A stretch of 38,590 bases of DNA, from assembly GCA_027293415.1 (NCBI GenBank), contig JAPUFX010000052.1, positions 1 to 38,590 of the forward strand, given 5' to 3'. The notes beneath the pieces were generated by a model. The model searched no databases. It was not told the origin of the DNA and was given only the letters and a program-made list of their open reading frames with translations. A program made the position numbers and the translations under genes. Below, in pieces: positions 3,404 to 38,277 of the stretch. This stretch comes from Candidatus Methylomirabilota bacterium. GTDB taxonomy: Bacteria > Methylomirabilota > Methylomirabilia > Methylomirabilales > CSP1-5. How positions within the stretch are numbered: position 1 is the stretch's first letter; each line of letters begins with the position of its first letter.

Positions 3404-4312
3404 TCATCTAACAATAGTAGCCATTATTCGTTCAGCCAACTTAGCTCTGAGGTCGTCTGGTCCAGTCCAGACAATGTGGTTGTATTGCCTAGTATCGAAG
3501 TGTGTATTTTCGAAATCATCCTCCTGACACGTCCAAATAACGGGACGGCCTAATCCCATAGCAAAACCTGTCTCGAAGTAGACCCCAGCACGCTGGAGTG
3601 TAAAATCCGCCACAACGAATTGGCACTGTCGAATCTCCGCAAGAATCTTATCGCAGATTTTCTCGTTGTGGTGGACCCTATCAATCCTAACGGGCTCAAT
3701 TCCGCATTCTGCGACTGCAGGTCGGATGCCCGTCTCGTACGCCTCCTCGAGGGATTCATGGAAGGACATGGCTATAAAGCAGCGACCGGGTATGCCGCCT
3801 CCCCCTTTCGGAGGTTCGAGGCATTGCCAGCCGCCAACGGTGAGAACATACTTGTTAGGGGCGACCTGCCGCAGATACTCAAGTCCTATCACATGGTCCA
3901 GGAGATAGCCCAATTCTCCGGGAGAACTTGCATCCAGCAGAGGGTAATCAAGACTAGTATTTACATCGACTATGTCTCCGGGATGAGAAGAACGAGATGC
4001 TACGAGTTCCAAAAGCTTGTTCACTTTCTGGGACACTGGTGTTCCCATATGCGATTTGGCGAAATCCGCCCAATTCTCTGTAGTGAGTTCGCTTCGGATA
4101 CCTCGCGCTATCGCTTGTCGCGTATAAGCCGACAAATATGGAAGGAGTGCACGGCGGTCTGGAGTTAATCCTCTAAAGACAACAAAGAGTGTTCCGGTCA
4201 TCACAAACTCGCCGCAGCGCGCACAGTCGACGAAGTTGGCGTCTCGGGTTCCAATACCAGTTATGCGAGCTTCGATTCCGCAAATTGGGCACCGTGTTTC
4301 ACCATTGGGCAT
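3404..4312 (-). CDS. Zinc-ribbon plus nucleoside 2-deoxyribosyltransferase-like protein
   Basis: The 302-residue protein has two parts. Residues 8-33 form a probable zinc ribbon (CPIC and CARC). From about residue 178 it has the pattern of the nucleoside 2-deoxyribosyltransferase-like fold: an opening strand CFIAMSF, then VVADFT with an acidic residue, then GVYFETGFAMGLGRPVIW, where the glutamate corresponds to the catalytic position of true deoxyribosyltransferases. The middle (about 50-170) is unassigned. In bacterial defence islands this fold is often used to bind or cleave nucleotides, so a sensor or effector role is possible; neither the substrate nor the role is shown here. It neighbours a GmrSD-like gene and tRNA genes, a common island setting. 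The start codon has only a weak ribosome site (GAAGA). Confidence 0.65.
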   Translation of the reverse strand: MPNGETRCPICGIEARITGIGTRDANFVDCARCGEFVMTGTLFVVFRGLTPDRRALLPYLSAYTRQAIARGIRSELTTENWADFAKSHMGTPVSQKVNKLLELVASRSSHPGDIVDVNTSLDYPLLDASSPGELGYLLDHVIGLEYLRQVAPNKYVLTVGGWQCLEPPKGGGGIPGRCFIAMSFHESLEEAYETGIRPAVAECGIEPVRIDRVHHNEKICDKILAEIRQCQFVVADFTLQRAGVYFETGFAMGLGRPVIWTCQEDDFENTHFDTRQYNHIVWTGPDDLRAKLAERIMATIVR

Positions 4313-34423: not shown

Positions 34424-34801
34424 ATGAAAACACTTATTTGCCCTACATGTGGCTGTTCCCTGGTACGGCTAGGCATCAGCAAAGATAAGGCATTTCCTCA
34501 CCGCTATAACAATGAGGAATACCGTTTCTGTTGCCAGGCGTGCGTCGACCTGTTCACCATCGATCCCCAGAAATACCTCCAGAAAATAGATGATTTGATT
34601 GTATGCCCAAGCTGCTTGGGTGAAAAACCACTCGAGCGGGCCGTCAAGTTGATTGCCGGACAGGATGTGCACTTTTGCGGTTGTCCGTATTGCGCAGAAG
34701 TGTTCCAGAAGAACCCTGATTTTTACATTAGACGTTTAGAAGGTACCATACCTAATGAGGGCGTGCTTGACCATGAAGGACGTTGTGTTAGGCCGGAGTA
34801 A
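34424..34801 (+). CDS. Tandem YHS/TRASH-like metal-binding protein
   Basis: The 125-residue cytoplasmic protein holds two copies of one small cysteine-rich motif: CPTCG...YRFCCQACVDLFTIDPQKYL (residues 6-52) and CPSCL...VHFCGCPYCAEVFQKNPDFYI (about 61-105). CxxC with FCxxCxxxF and a following P..Y is the pattern of YHS/TRASH domains, which bind metals such as copper, mercury or zinc. AGGAGG lies six bases before ATG 34424. An extended -10-like TGCTATACA sits just behind the RNA terminator at 34380-34388 and could be its own promoter. It converges with the mercury-type operon, suggesting a role in metal handling or trafficking. The exact function is unknown. Confidence 0.75.
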   Translation: MKTLICPTCGCSLVRLGISKDKAFPHRYNNEEYRFCCQACVDLFTIDPQKYLQKIDDLIVCPSCLGEKPLERAVKLIAGQDVHFCGCPYCAEVFQKNPDFYIRRLEGTIPNEGVLDHEGRCVRPE

Positions 34802-34911: not shown

Positions 34912-36285
34912 TCAGACCATATACGCCAAGTCAGACGCGTGTGTCGGATACGCGAAAATCCCGTCCCTTAGATCCTCAGTAGTGAGACCGCGACGGATGG
35001 CAAGCGCAAAGAAGTTGATCAGCTCATCAGCGGATGGTCCGAGCAGGTGCGCACCGAGGATCCTACCCGTACCTTCTTCGATCAGCACCTTGGATGCCGA
35101 GTATTGCTCGCCCACGCGCCGGGAAGAATACCAAGTAGACGTATCCTGATATTTGACCCTAAACTTAAGTGTCTGCTTCCGTGCCTCGTCCTCTCTGAGA
35201 CCGACCGCGGCGATCGGCGGCAAGGTGAACGCCACGGTCGGAGTACCGCTGTAATCCGGCTGTGCCTTGTTTCCGTCCAAGAGATTCGCTGCTACAACCT
35301 TTCCCTCGAGCCCCGCGACAGGTGTAAGCGGCAACCCTGCGGTCTCGGCTGCATCTCCCGCGGCGTAGACCGCTGGATTCGAGATGCTCTGCAGGTACTC
35401 GTTCACCAGTACTCCACGCTCACCCCGCTCCACGCCGGCCGCCGCCAGGTCGAGGTCGTCTATCTCGGCAACACGGCCGGCACCGTGAACCACGAGATCA
35501 GCCTCGAAGGTTTGCGCTCCCGCAGGCGCCGATGTCCTTACCTCGAAGCCACCGGCAATTTGGTCGATACGTTCAACCTGGGTCTCCAACTTCAGATCGA
35601 TGCCGCTGGCGCGGGCCGCCTGCGCCACCTTCTCAGCCAAGTCGGGATCGAATCCCTCAAGGGGACGGGGACCCCGGTGAAGGACAGTGACCTTGGCTCC
35701 GGCGCGGACAGCAACATTCGCGAACTCCATGGAGATGTAACCGGCGCCCACGAAGACGATACGTTCCGGCAACTCAGCCAACTCAAGGAAGTCTTCGCTC
35801 GTGATGAGGTGGTCTTCCCCCGGAATTCCAAGCTTGGCCGGCATGGCGCCGGACGCGATGACCACGTGCCTGGCCTCCAAGAGATTTTCGCCGACGTGGA
35901 CAGAGGTGGGGCCGACGAACTTCGCCCGCCCGTAGAACGGGTCGATCCCAGCTCTGGCAAATCCCTGTTCGTGGTTCTCGGGCACGGGTTCGGTAAACGT
36001 CCGTTTGAAGGCCATGAGCTCGCGCCAGTCGATTCGCACATCGCCAGGGTACACCCCGCGGCCGGTCAAGCGGTGCCCCCAGTAAAGCGCTTCGGCCGCG
36101 GCGACCAGCACTTTCTTGGGATCGCAGCCCCGTAGGGCACACGTACCCCCGAAGGGGCGGGAATCTATAACCGCTACGGTCCATCCTGCTCTGCGGCAGC
36201 GTGACGCCACCGTCGAGGCCGCGGACCCGGTTCCAATAACAACCAGGTCGTATGCGCCCTTACCATTCCTCCTCTTGCCAGTCAT
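34912..36285 (-). CDS. FAD-dependent pyridine nucleotide-disulfide oxidoreductase
   Basis: The 457-residue flavoprotein belongs to the glutathione reductase/dihydrolipoamide dehydrogenase/mercuric reductase class. It has an FAD loop VVIGTGSAAS at 15-24, the redox disulfide GGTCALRGC (C49 and C54), an NAD(P) loop VFVGAGYISMEFA near 170, and AAGDAAE near 305. The dimerisation domain ends in YPTHASD instead of the HPHPT-type active-site loop, and the C-terminal cysteine pair of true MerA is missing. I therefore do not call it mercuric reductase. It may reduce a thiol or selenol partner. AGGAGG lies five bases before ATG 36285. It is the last gene of the operon, 49 bases behind the Sec-DCC gene. 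Confidence 0.85.
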   Translation of the reverse strand: MTGKRRNGKGAYDLVVIGTGSAASTVASRCRRAGWTVAVIDSRPFGGTCALRGCDPKKVLVAAAEALYWGHRLTGRGVYPGDVRIDWRELMAFKRTFTEPVPENHEQGFARAGIDPFYGRAKFVGPTSVHVGENLLEARHVVIASGAMPAKLGIPGEDHLITSEDFLELAELPERIVFVGAGYISMEFANVAVRAGAKVTVLHRGPRPLEGFDPDLAEKVAQAARASGIDLKLETQVERIDQIAGGFEVRTSAPAGAQTFEADLVVHGAGRVAEIDDLDLAAAGVERGERGVLVNEYLQSISNPAVYAAGDAAETAGLPLTPVAGLEGKVVAANLLDGNKAQPDYSGTPTVAFTLPPIAAVGLREDEARKQTLKFRVKYQDTSTWYSSRRVGEQYSASKVLIEEGTGRILGAHLLGPSADELINFFALAIRRGLTTEDLRDGIFAYPTHASDLAYMV

Positions 36286-36334
36286 AGGTTCCTCCTTCAA
36301 TTAGTTCTTCCTGAAACACGAAAGCTCCTCCAAT

Positions 36335-36709
36335 CTACCTCAGCCACCCTGCGAGCCGTCGCCGGTTCCGGGACACCCAGCGGTATGCCCTGTGAGCCAG
36401 CCACATGCCACCCGGAATGTGAAAGGGGAAGCTTATCAGGAAGGCGCCGGGGAGCCTCTCAAGTGTCCCGCGGACGGCGGCAGCACCCGTTAAAATTTGG
36501 CCCCACTCATCAACGAGATGAAGCTCCTCATGGCAGCGCTCCCGGGAGATGCCCGGAAAGCGTATTTCCAGGTCAGGCTCTTGGAAGGGGATCAGATCAA
36601 GCCGCCTCCCACGATCCCGCCGGTGGACCCACCGGGCCCAGCGCTGTCAGAGGCTTCAGTCGCCGTCGTAGATGACGGCAGCCTTGGGATCCTTCACCGC
36701 CGCAAGCAT
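36335..36709 (-). CDS. DCC-family thiol-disulfide oxidoreductase, predicted selenoprotein (UxxU)
   Basis: Read through two UGA codons, this frame gives a 124-residue DCC/DUF393 protein. VIYDGD is followed by U18-S-L-U21, then QRWARWVHRRD, LHLVDEWGQILTGAAAVRG and AYRWVSRNRRRLAGWL. In the family the motif is DGxCxxC, so both catalytic cysteines are replaced by UGA (36658-36656 and 36649-36647), and nowhere else is the frame broken. The only other cysteine (C59) is coded normally. A hairpin with a GGUC loop lies 18-21 nt after the second UGA. I infer selenocysteine at both sites. DCC proteins are thought to exchange disulfides; DCC genes are often next to DoxX, as here. ATG 36709 is 19 bases after the doxX stop. 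Conventional calling sees noncoding DNA here. Confidence 0.78.
36620..36635 (-). promoter_or_regulatory. Candidate bacterial SECIS in the DCC gene
   Basis: The minus strand reads CCGGTG-GGTC-CACCGG, a perfect 6-bp stem with the tetraloop GGUC. Counted from the second UGA (36647), the loop is at nt 18-21. In E. coli fdhF the SECIS loop is AGGUCU at about nt 18-23 after UGA, from memory. Only one hairpin is obvious for two UGAs. Confidence 0.6.
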
Positions 36710-36727: not shown

Positions 36728-37192
36728 TTAAGCCCTTCCCTGCCGGGCATCCAGGCTGTAGTGTCCGCCCCCCTTCACGAAGAGGTAGAAGGTGGCCGCC
36801 GCCAAGGGGATGTCCTTCAAAAGAAGGTGTGCAAGGGCTGATGTAATCCCCTTCTGGGGAACGTAAGGCCAGAGACCTATAAAGATGGCCGCCAGCATGA
36901 GGATCATTAAGAGCGAAACAAAGCGGGTGAAGAGCCCCAGGATGAGCAGCACCCCGAGCGCCAGCTCGAACATTGCTATAGCTTTCGTCAGGATCGGCAG
37001 AGGGATGGTAAGAGGGATCAGCCAGCTGGCCATCTTGGTCATCATTGTTCCCTTCTGGGGAAGAATGAGCTTTGGCACCACGGCCATCCAGATCCACAGG
37101 AAGCCGATGGCAATCCGTAGAATGAGCGGGAGGTATTTATCGAGTGGGGTAAGGTCGAGCCCAAGAAACGTATGGCTTTCGCTTTGCTGCAT
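36728..37192 (-). CDS. DoxX-family membrane protein
   Basis: The 154-residue protein has four hydrophobic segments and the DoxX-type pattern: an early LRIAIGFLWIWMAVVPKL, then a central MFELALGVLLILGLFTRFVS. DoxX-like proteins take part in thiol or quinone redox and oxidative-stress handling, in several cases together with DCC or rhodanese partners. GGGAGG seven bases before ATG 37192 supports this start over one five codons upstream. It lies between merF and the Sec-DCC gene. Confidence 0.8.
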   Translation of the reverse strand: MQQSESHTFLGLDLTPLDKYLPLILRIAIGFLWIWMAVVPKLILPQKGTMMTKMASWLIPLTIPLPILTKAIAMFELALGVLLILGLFTRFVSLLMILMLAAIFIGLWPYVPQKGITSALAHLLLKDIPLAAATFYLFVKGGGHYSLDARQGRA

Positions 37193-37284
37193 ATTCCTGC
37201 CTCCCATCAGTCTCTATTTCACTATTGATTCATCTCTCAAAAGATAACTCACACGAAAGAGCCAGGGTTGCGTCTCGCCTTCCA

Positions 37285-37503
37285 CTATCCCTTCACCTTT
37301 CGCACCTGGGAAGCCCGCCACCAGCCCCAGAGTGCGATCCCGACGAATAAAAACAAGAGGGGTAAGAGGACATAGTCCAGGTATGCGGTGACCGCGGCAA
37401 GCCCTACGAGACCAAATACCCAGGGAAGGATAGGAGTCACACAGCAGATTCCTGTGATTCCCGTGCCCCACCCGCCGACCTTCACAAACTTATCATTCGT
37501 CAT
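37285..37503 (-). CDS. MerF-like mercury transport protein
   Basis: A 72-residue protein with two membrane segments and the vicinal pair C20-C21 at the first segment (GICCVTPILPWVFG), then LTAYLDYVL-like text (VTAYLDYVLLPLLFLF) as in MerF. These small proteins carry Hg(II) across the inner membrane. A second cysteine pair, present in classical MerF, is absent. Its ATG overlaps the TGA of the upstream merP by four bases (ATGA), indicating coupled translation. Both cysteines are ordinary codons. Confidence 0.8.
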   Translation of the reverse strand: MTNDKFVKVGGWGTGITGICCVTPILPWVFGLVGLAAVTAYLDYVLLPLLFLFVGIALWGWWRASQVRKVKG

Positions 37504-37868
37504 AGTTCTTCTTTGCCTCCTTGCACGGGAATGGCGTGAAATCCTGCCTTCTCAACCGCCGTCACCATGCCATCAAGTGTCACCTGGGTAGGATCATACG
37601 TAACGATCGCCTGGGCATTGCTAAAGCTGACCTCCGCCTTTTCGACGCCGTCGAGCCCTTCCAGGGCCCGTTTGACCAATAACGGTCAGGCGAATCACGT
37701 CATCCCCTCTATACGGAGGATCACCTCCTGAACCGATCCGGCCGGTTCTTTCTCCGATGTGAGCTGAGCCCTCCCTGGTGCGCTGCTCCCCTGGCCCTCG
37801 CATCCCATAGCCAATACGAGGACGAACGGTAAAGCGAAGAGGGCCCTGAGGGCTGCGCGGCGATCCAT
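37500..37868 (-). CDS. MerP-like HMA-domain lipoprotein, predicted selenoprotein (UxxU)
   Basis: With two UGA codons read through, this frame encodes 122 residues. A lipoprotein signal (FVLVLAMGC, lipid site C23) and a short linker come first. An HMA/MerP domain follows: VILRIEGMT, then U58-F-A-U61, then PLLVKRALEGLDGVEKAEV and AIVTYDPTQVTLDGMVTAV. The conserved metal-binding GMTCxxC motif thus has UGA at both cysteines (37697-37695 and 37688-37686), while the frame is otherwise intact. A hairpin with GGUC in its loop lies 18-21 nt after the first UGA. Selenocysteine at both sites is the best reading; diselenolate would bind Hg(II) very tightly. The ATG follows the merT stop without a gap, and the stop overlaps merF. 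No conventional gene would be called here. Confidence 0.8.
37668..37685 (-). promoter_or_regulatory. Candidate bacterial SECIS in the merP gene
   Basis: Directly behind the second UGA the minus strand reads CCGTT-ATTGGTCA-AACGG, a 5-bp stem with GGUC in an 8-base loop. GGUC is 18-21 nt after the first UGA (37695), the same distance as in the DCC gene after its second UGA. A further stem (GGGCCCT/AGGGCTC) follows downstream. Confidence 0.6.
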
Positions 37869-38219
37869 TTATCCCCCCATCATTAACGACCAGAGTGCAT
37901 CAGGAAACACGACAAACACCACTTCGATAAACAGTATCATTAATGCCGCGATGAGCAGGGTCAGGTTGAGCCTGGAGCCGGCCATCCGACAGCCAAGGGT
38001 CTCGCACCGGCGCTTTTCCCGGAAATACAGGTAGTATCCCAATCCAACGCCCAGGATTCCGAGAGGTAGAAAGAAGGGCCGGTACTGCATAGTCGTCGCC
38101 ATGAACGCGCCGCTCCCGAGACCCAGGAGGACCACCGTGAGGGGGAGCAGGCAGCAGAGCGAGGCTAGGAATGCCCCACCGAAACTGACGAGACCCGACT
38201 TCAGGTCAGCAACTTTCAT
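37869..38219 (-). CDS. MerT-like mercury transport protein
   Basis: A 116-residue membrane protein with three hydrophobic segments. C22-C23 in the first (FLASLCCLLPLTVVLLGLG) corresponds to the MerT vicinal cysteines that take Hg(II) from MerP. A second pair, C86 and C91 by rough count (RRCETLGC), lies in the cytoplasmic loop, as in MerT. GGAG precedes ATG 38219 by about five bases; an in-frame ATG at 38252 is less likely. The stop codon touches the ATG of merP. Both cysteine pairs use normal codons. Confidence 0.82.
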   Translation of the reverse strand: MKVADLKSGLVSFGGAFLASLCCLLPLTVVLLGLGSGAFMATTMQYRPFFLPLGILGVGLGYYLYFREKRRCETLGCRMAGSRLNLTLLIAALMILFIEVVFVVFPDALWSLMMGG

Positions 38220-38277
38220 GAGCTCTCCGTTCCTTTTGTTCCCGAGCCACACCTGAGAAGAATTGTTCCGAAGGCCT

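Follow-up and report, generated by a model that had tools for sequence, protein, structure and literature searches.

A MerP-like gene of Methylomirabilota with UGA at both metal-binding positions and a predicted SECIS hairpin

Most characterised selenoproteins have a single selenocysteine (Sec), which serves redox catalysis. The periplasmic mercury-binding protein MerP (TIGR02052; structures 1osd and 1afi) holds Hg(II) with two Cys ligands. A UxxU metal-binding family is present in reviews of 2022 and 2026 (PMC9312934, PMC13188914), and the accessible text of the later one lists the NCBIfam model NF041115 as a ‘putative mercuric reductase’ of UxxU type, with a paper on an Olavius algarvensis symbiont as its source. 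The 2008 table of the Global Ocean Sampling selenoproteome, in the passages available, includes MerP with Sec, represented by 2 sequences (PMC2398784), and 63 selenoproteins were predicted for one genome of Methylomirabilota by a Cell Reports study, as cited in the accessible part of PMC13188914.

Here we describe a gene from a Methylomirabilota genome whose product shares with MerP the HMA fold, the position of the GMTxxxx motif, mer neighbours and an apparent export signal, but which has UGA, predicted to encode Sec, in place of both Cys codons. We consider it very probable that this product is an exported HMA protein of the MerP type, that one shared SECIS element directs Sec insertion at both UGA58 and UGA61, and that the protein hands Hg(II) over to MerT and MerF.

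The coding frame, its UGA codons and the decoding machinery

The window, by which we mean the whole stretch of DNA that was analysed, comprises 38,590 bases (G000:C52) of a 2.75 Mb genome that is 96.5% complete, with 3% contamination, in a fragmented assembly of 221 contigs. A small operon of mer type, on the minus strand, occupies its end. The predicted HMA selenoprotein gene of this operon (37500..37868, minus strand; 122 residues, GMT-U-F-A-U) opens with an ATG immediately 3′ of the merT TAA (37871-37869). Upstream of this ATG lies GGGGGG (37878-37873), likely the ribosome-binding site. The coding frame (37868-37503) is closed by a TGA (37502-37500) that overlaps the merF ATG at 37503 (ATGA). 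Within it we find two in-frame stops, both TGA, at codons 58 and 61, the two x positions of GMT-x-FA-x-P: UGA1 (37695..37697, minus strand; predicted Sec58) at the first metal-binding position and UGA2 (37686..37688, minus strand; predicted Sec61) at the second. The original prediction, of one intact frame from merT to merF with TGA at both cysteines of GMTCxxC, is borne out by these positions. Its statement that only two TGA codons break the frame holds for the internal stops but not for the gene as a whole, which also terminates at an in-frame UGA, its third.

UGA usually terminates translation and the assembly is a draft, so an ordinary MerP gene with two nonsense mutations, or an error of assembly, had to be considered. 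A search across 99 related genomes recovered the double-UGA form repeatedly, yielding 21 distinct GMTUxxU genes; the 19 Methylomirabilota genomes that contain them represent several families of the class, and TGA is at both sites in 21/21. The nearest named relative, on a contig of NC10 bacterium SPGG6, is 92% identical and shares both UGAs. Chance nonsense mutations, called unlikely in the original prediction, are excluded by the recurrence of the same TGA pair in the SPGG6 gene and 19 more. Two findings that the prediction had named as fatal to it, TGC or TGT in close relatives and scattered stops or frameshifts, did not appear: close relatives have TGA at both sites instead, and no scattered frameshifts. 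In a homologue tree built on only 61 columns, with many forks unresolved, neither site has a Cys or other sense codon anywhere in the UxxU clade, with the exception of L094, a long-branch CxxU row. For the segment 3′ of UGA2, dN/dS of the window gene is 0.081 against SPGG6, 0.273 against L080 (the host genome's second copy) and 0.27 against G004, and values in this range, 0.081-0.273, show that the segment beyond the stops is translated and under purifying selection. Together with the frozen hairpin stem and the Sec machinery described below, these results make decay or assembly error a very improbable explanation; the MerP-like gene is not a pseudogene.

UGA is also found at both sites in two genomes that we take as assigned to other phyla, as they are listed as ‘same domain’ only. 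A plasmid search for homologues returned distant ones, all below 60% identity. Separately, we noted that on the SPGG6 contig (LXTG01000113, L016) the mer operon passes into unrelated sequence within merF after about position 4030, so that this contig looks like a chimeric assembly. Two further MerP-like homologues, L190 (G029:C100, 1933-2139) and L064 (G027:C48), have an extra codon (UxxxU) or a single UGA left (GMTUPDTGP) and are possibly drifting copies.

The four genes selA, selB, selC and selD, which the original prediction had proposed as a check on the genome, are all present. SelA scores 616.7 bits, SelB 389 bits, tRNA-Sec (SelC) 75.9 bits against a cut-off of 47, and SelD 402.8 bits, the SelD gene itself containing a UGA (HGAGUACK). 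In 16 of the 17 relatives tested, tRNA-Sec likewise scores over its cut-off. Several genes of the genome have in-frame UGAs, as would be expected if the codon had been reassigned to another amino acid throughout the organism. However, UGA terminates dnaA, the FAD reductase and the MerP-like gene in the window, so it is not a globally reassigned sense codon, and the recoded UGAs coincide with the cysteines of known motifs and are accompanied by hairpins; the probability of an organism-wide reassignment is close to nil. Under Sec decoding, both UGA58 and UGA61 would be read by SelB and tRNA-Sec, while the third UGA, outside any SECIS context, would terminate.

A conserved hairpin downstream of both UGA codons

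A SECIS hairpin had been expected downstream of the UGA codons, and a SECIS-like hairpin is found there (37652..37670, minus strand; CGGGCCCU-GGA-AGGGCUCG); UGA1 and UGA2 precede its loop by 32 and 23 nt, respectively. The bSECIS criteria (PMC13188914) comprise a loop of 3-9 nt with G in the first two positions, an upper stem of 4-16 bp, a spacing of 16-37 nt and an MFE of -7.5 kcal/mol or lower; with -12.2 kcal/mol, 8 bp and a GGA loop, the window hairpin agrees with this model for both UGAs. Taken alone the model is weak, as 10% of the non-Sec codons in the same genes satisfy it too, with the MFE limit at -7.5 kcal/mol. For this reason we dropped the single-gene scan as evidence and based the case for the hairpin on conservation. 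Rfam at a permissive threshold placed no SECIS family on the region, and the three permissive matches that it did return there were set aside as chance.

A hairpin of the GGCCCU-GGA-AGGGCU type is present in 21/21 UxxU genes, with the loop at 32/23 nt (31/22 nt in L067). Wobble bases are held fixed within its stem: 21/21 genes use GGG for Gly39 vs 4/20 for Gly48 (p=5e-8), and 21/21 use GCC for Ala30 vs 8/21 for Ala60 (p=2e-5). In the 21 UxxU genes alone, covariation did not rise above shuffles (2 double-changed cells, 99/500 shuffles as high), and since this set was too thin we added the UxxC and CxxU homologues. Among the 30 Sec homologues, 83% of hairpin cells are paired, vs 35-58% when the hairpin is slid along the alignment, and 19 cells have changed on both sides without loss of pairing, a number that none of 500 shuffles reached (mean 8.2); these counts take no account of relatedness and should not be read as probabilities. 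At one position of the stem, 22 of these homologues have C-G, 7 have U-A and 1 has G-C.

The homologues with one UGA bear on how a single hairpin might relate to two codons. Four CxxU genes (L091, L096, L098, L120) have a hairpin at the same place, in other letters, 23 nt after their sole UGA. In two UxxC genes (L095, L121), which have UGA1 only, the downstream hairpin is retained at the same place, 32 nt off, and is the best model match. The hairpins of these CxxU and UxxC homologues show compensatory changes, and the tree nests the UxxC genes within the CxxU clade, again on 61 columns and with many forks unresolved. Other single-UGA homologues, L087 and L088/L089, have other best hairpins. 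The common position in CxxU and UxxC genes is most simply explained if one SECIS can serve either UGA, and hence both; from these comparisons, a single element probably serves either or both UGAs of the MerP-like gene.

A second gene of the window has a comparable arrangement. It encodes a DCC1-like thiol-disulfide oxidoreductase (36335..36709, minus strand; PF04134, 88.0 bits) in which both cysteines of the motif are UGA (36658-36656 and 36649-36647; YDGDUSLU). A predicted SECIS hairpin, CCGGUG-GGUC-CACCGG (36620..36635, minus strand), follows these codons at 26 and 17 nt. UGA is found at both sites in five further genes (G000:C115, G001, G003, G004, G006), the hairpin is invariant in all six, and Cys forms exist in other families. 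PF04134 was not found in the accessible text of the 2026 selenoprotein table (PMC13188914).

It could be argued that each UGA of the MerP-like gene has a SECIS of its own, UGA1 using a small UGACC/GGUCA-type hairpin around UGA2 and UGA2 the downstream hairpin, with the shared position a coincidence. RNAalifold does place a weak CC(N6)GG hairpin between UGA2 and the main hairpin in the UxxU set, and G167 has a fitting hairpin of -8.0 kcal/mol 17 nt after UGA1. The behaviour of the UxxC genes and the single invariant hairpin of the six DCC UxxU genes both speak against such an arrangement, which we regard as rather unlikely. We favour a single in-frame SECIS that would most likely serve both codons. 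If two close UGAs are recoded by one SECIS despite their unequal distances from it, the usual view that each bacterial Sec codon has its own hairpin would have to be relaxed, and the UxxU, UxxC and CxxU homologues amount to a natural experiment that makes a shared SECIS directly testable.

Protein fold, mer neighbours and the metal ligand

The read-through protein matches Pfam HMA (PF00403) at 52.9 bits (cut-off 24.8). AlphaFold2 predicts a confident HMA domain at residues 47-115, whose best match among solved structures is oxidised MerP, 1osd (TM 0.96 over target). An N-terminal signal sequence, MDRRAALRALFALPFVLVLAMGC (37800..37868, minus strand), was assigned by reading the sequence, with a possible lipobox at Cys23, suggesting that the protein is exported and possibly lipid-anchored. 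The lipobox reads LAMGC in the window gene and LAAGC in L080, and the Cys is also present in L016 but missing in L048 (G004). The lipoprotein assignment of the original prediction is plausible for the window copy.

Directly upstream of the MerP-like gene is a merT-like gene with its vicinal CC intact (37869..38252, minus strand; PF02411 at 24.8 bits, below the cut-off of 32.9), and merF follows downstream (37285..37503, minus strand; PF11431 at 48.4 bits, cut-off 24.3). Beyond merF, on the same strand, lie a DoxX-like membrane protein (36728..37207), the DCC1-like gene and an FAD/NAD(P) disulfide reductase of the GR/MerA superfamily (34912..36300), which has GGTCALRGC with Cys, not Sec, and scores 299 bits with the MerA model TIGR02053, under its cut-off of 454, and is therefore no clear MerA. 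On the plus strand, at 34427-34801, the window also contains a gene for a YHS-like Cys-rich protein; a close relative of this protein is encoded within a second mer-like cluster, flanked by the LysW-like gene and merT.

From the MerP fold, the N-terminal signal and the mer neighbours we infer an exported mercury-binding protein with two selenolates. Its mature domain would adopt the MerP-like ferredoxin fold and bind Hg(II) through the U-x-x-U pair, and the metal would then pass, in the periplasm, to MerT/MerF for uptake and intracellular detoxification. The same protein could be a true selenoprotein with a ligand other than mercury, acting as a copper or soft-metal chaperone or in redox chemistry. 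HMA domains mostly bind Cu(I), and CopZ profiles score close behind MerP; moreover, the protein reaches 66.3 bits with the MerP equivalog TIGR02052, under its cut-off of 92.55, and this shortfall, together with a reductase that is no clear MerA, leaves room for another soft metal. On the other side stand the neighbouring MerT and MerF, the MerB and ArsR genes in many relatives, the top fold match to MerP 1osd, and the rank of MerP above CopZ in NCBIfam. Weighing these, we judge a non-mercury ligand quite unlikely, and hold to Hg(II) as the probable cargo.

The operons of relatives are consistent with a function in mercury handling. MerT adjoins the MerP-like gene in 20 of the 21 UxxU loci, the remaining locus being at a contig end, and MerB is found in about 12 of the 21 neighbourhoods. 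A recurring operon encodes ArsR, MerB, a UXX-star glutaredoxin (Sec), a LysW-like zinc-ribbon protein, MerT and MerP UxxU, with MerF, a second HMA UxxU protein, an ArsP-type permease and a MerT-like UU protein as variable members. Several of these are further candidate selenoproteins. The MerT-like membrane protein, at the end of the mer-like cluster, has UGA-UGA for its vicinal Cys pair (LPNAUUVLAL, LPNIUUILP; L080 6393-6722 on G000:C64, L194 654-968 on G000:C117, L208 5935-6243). The LysW-like protein (L080 2139-2429, beside merT-merP(UxxU); homologues in 22/60 genomes) has, in the genomes closest to that of the window, UGA at CxxU and DCPN-U; in family f7 it has Cys (CPNC). Its gene forms a strong hairpin, UCGCUC-CGGGU-GAGCGA, after the second UGA. 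In MerB (alkylmercury lyase), six loci (L177, L178, L180, L183, L186, L188) have UGA at the cysteine aligned to the Cys-type ‘SRC’, which we take to be a catalytic cysteine. The second HMA type, GMIUPIUAYG with a C-terminal extension (L080 4798-5307, L184, L185, L187, L194), has a different best hairpin, with its loop about 31-32 nt after UGA2. The two genomes from other phyla have a similar set, and in one of them the SECIS is at the same spacing.

Read as ArsR, MerB with or without Sec, UXX-star Grx, LysW-like CxxU, MerT, MerP UxxU and MerT-like UU, this operon would form a largely selenol-based mercury relay. That such a relay extends across Methylomirabilota and at least two genomes of other phyla, with one SECIS decoding two UGAs nine nucleotides apart, is a reading we lean towards, with some reserve. 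A Sec pair in the place of the two metal ligands of MerP suggests a role for selenium as a mercury ligand, and judging by the operon, the organism appears to invest selenium in coping with mercury.

Comparison with catalogued selenoproteins

Like the window protein, members of NF041115 (UxxU_metal_bind) have UGA at both CxxC positions of an HMA domain, and the window protein scores above the curated cut-off (96.3 bits with U read as C vs a cut-off of 95; 83.2 bits when the UGA positions are given no credit). It thus belongs to a catalogued family, and the protein family itself is already known. The catalogue name, however, describes metal binding only, whereas the window member is a stand-alone, apparently exported MerP-like protein encoded between merT and merF. 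The Sec-containing MerP of the Global Ocean Sampling set has the same name, but motif, operon and double Sec are not described in the passages of that paper that were covered (PMC2398784). NF045683, a MerT/CopZ fusion-like heavy-metal transport selenoprotein, also combines MerT-like and HMA-like parts in a selenoprotein, but it is a fusion protein, and the window gene scores 40.6 against its cut-off of 375.

The SAO and Tso operons of Haft and co-workers, as described in the accessible part of PMC13188914, likewise have several selenoproteins per operon and deal with organometals or metals, but their gene set differs from the ArsR, MerB, UXX-star, LysW-like, MerT and MerP of the mer operon. 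Part of the mer selenoprotein operon may already be listed in the Cell Reports study of 63 selenoproteins. In the accessible literature, we found no description of a shared SECIS, the DCC UxxU protein, the LysW-like protein or the MerT-like UU protein. Set against these systems, what the present locus adds is the mer context of a UxxU protein and a natural test of one SECIS for two codons.
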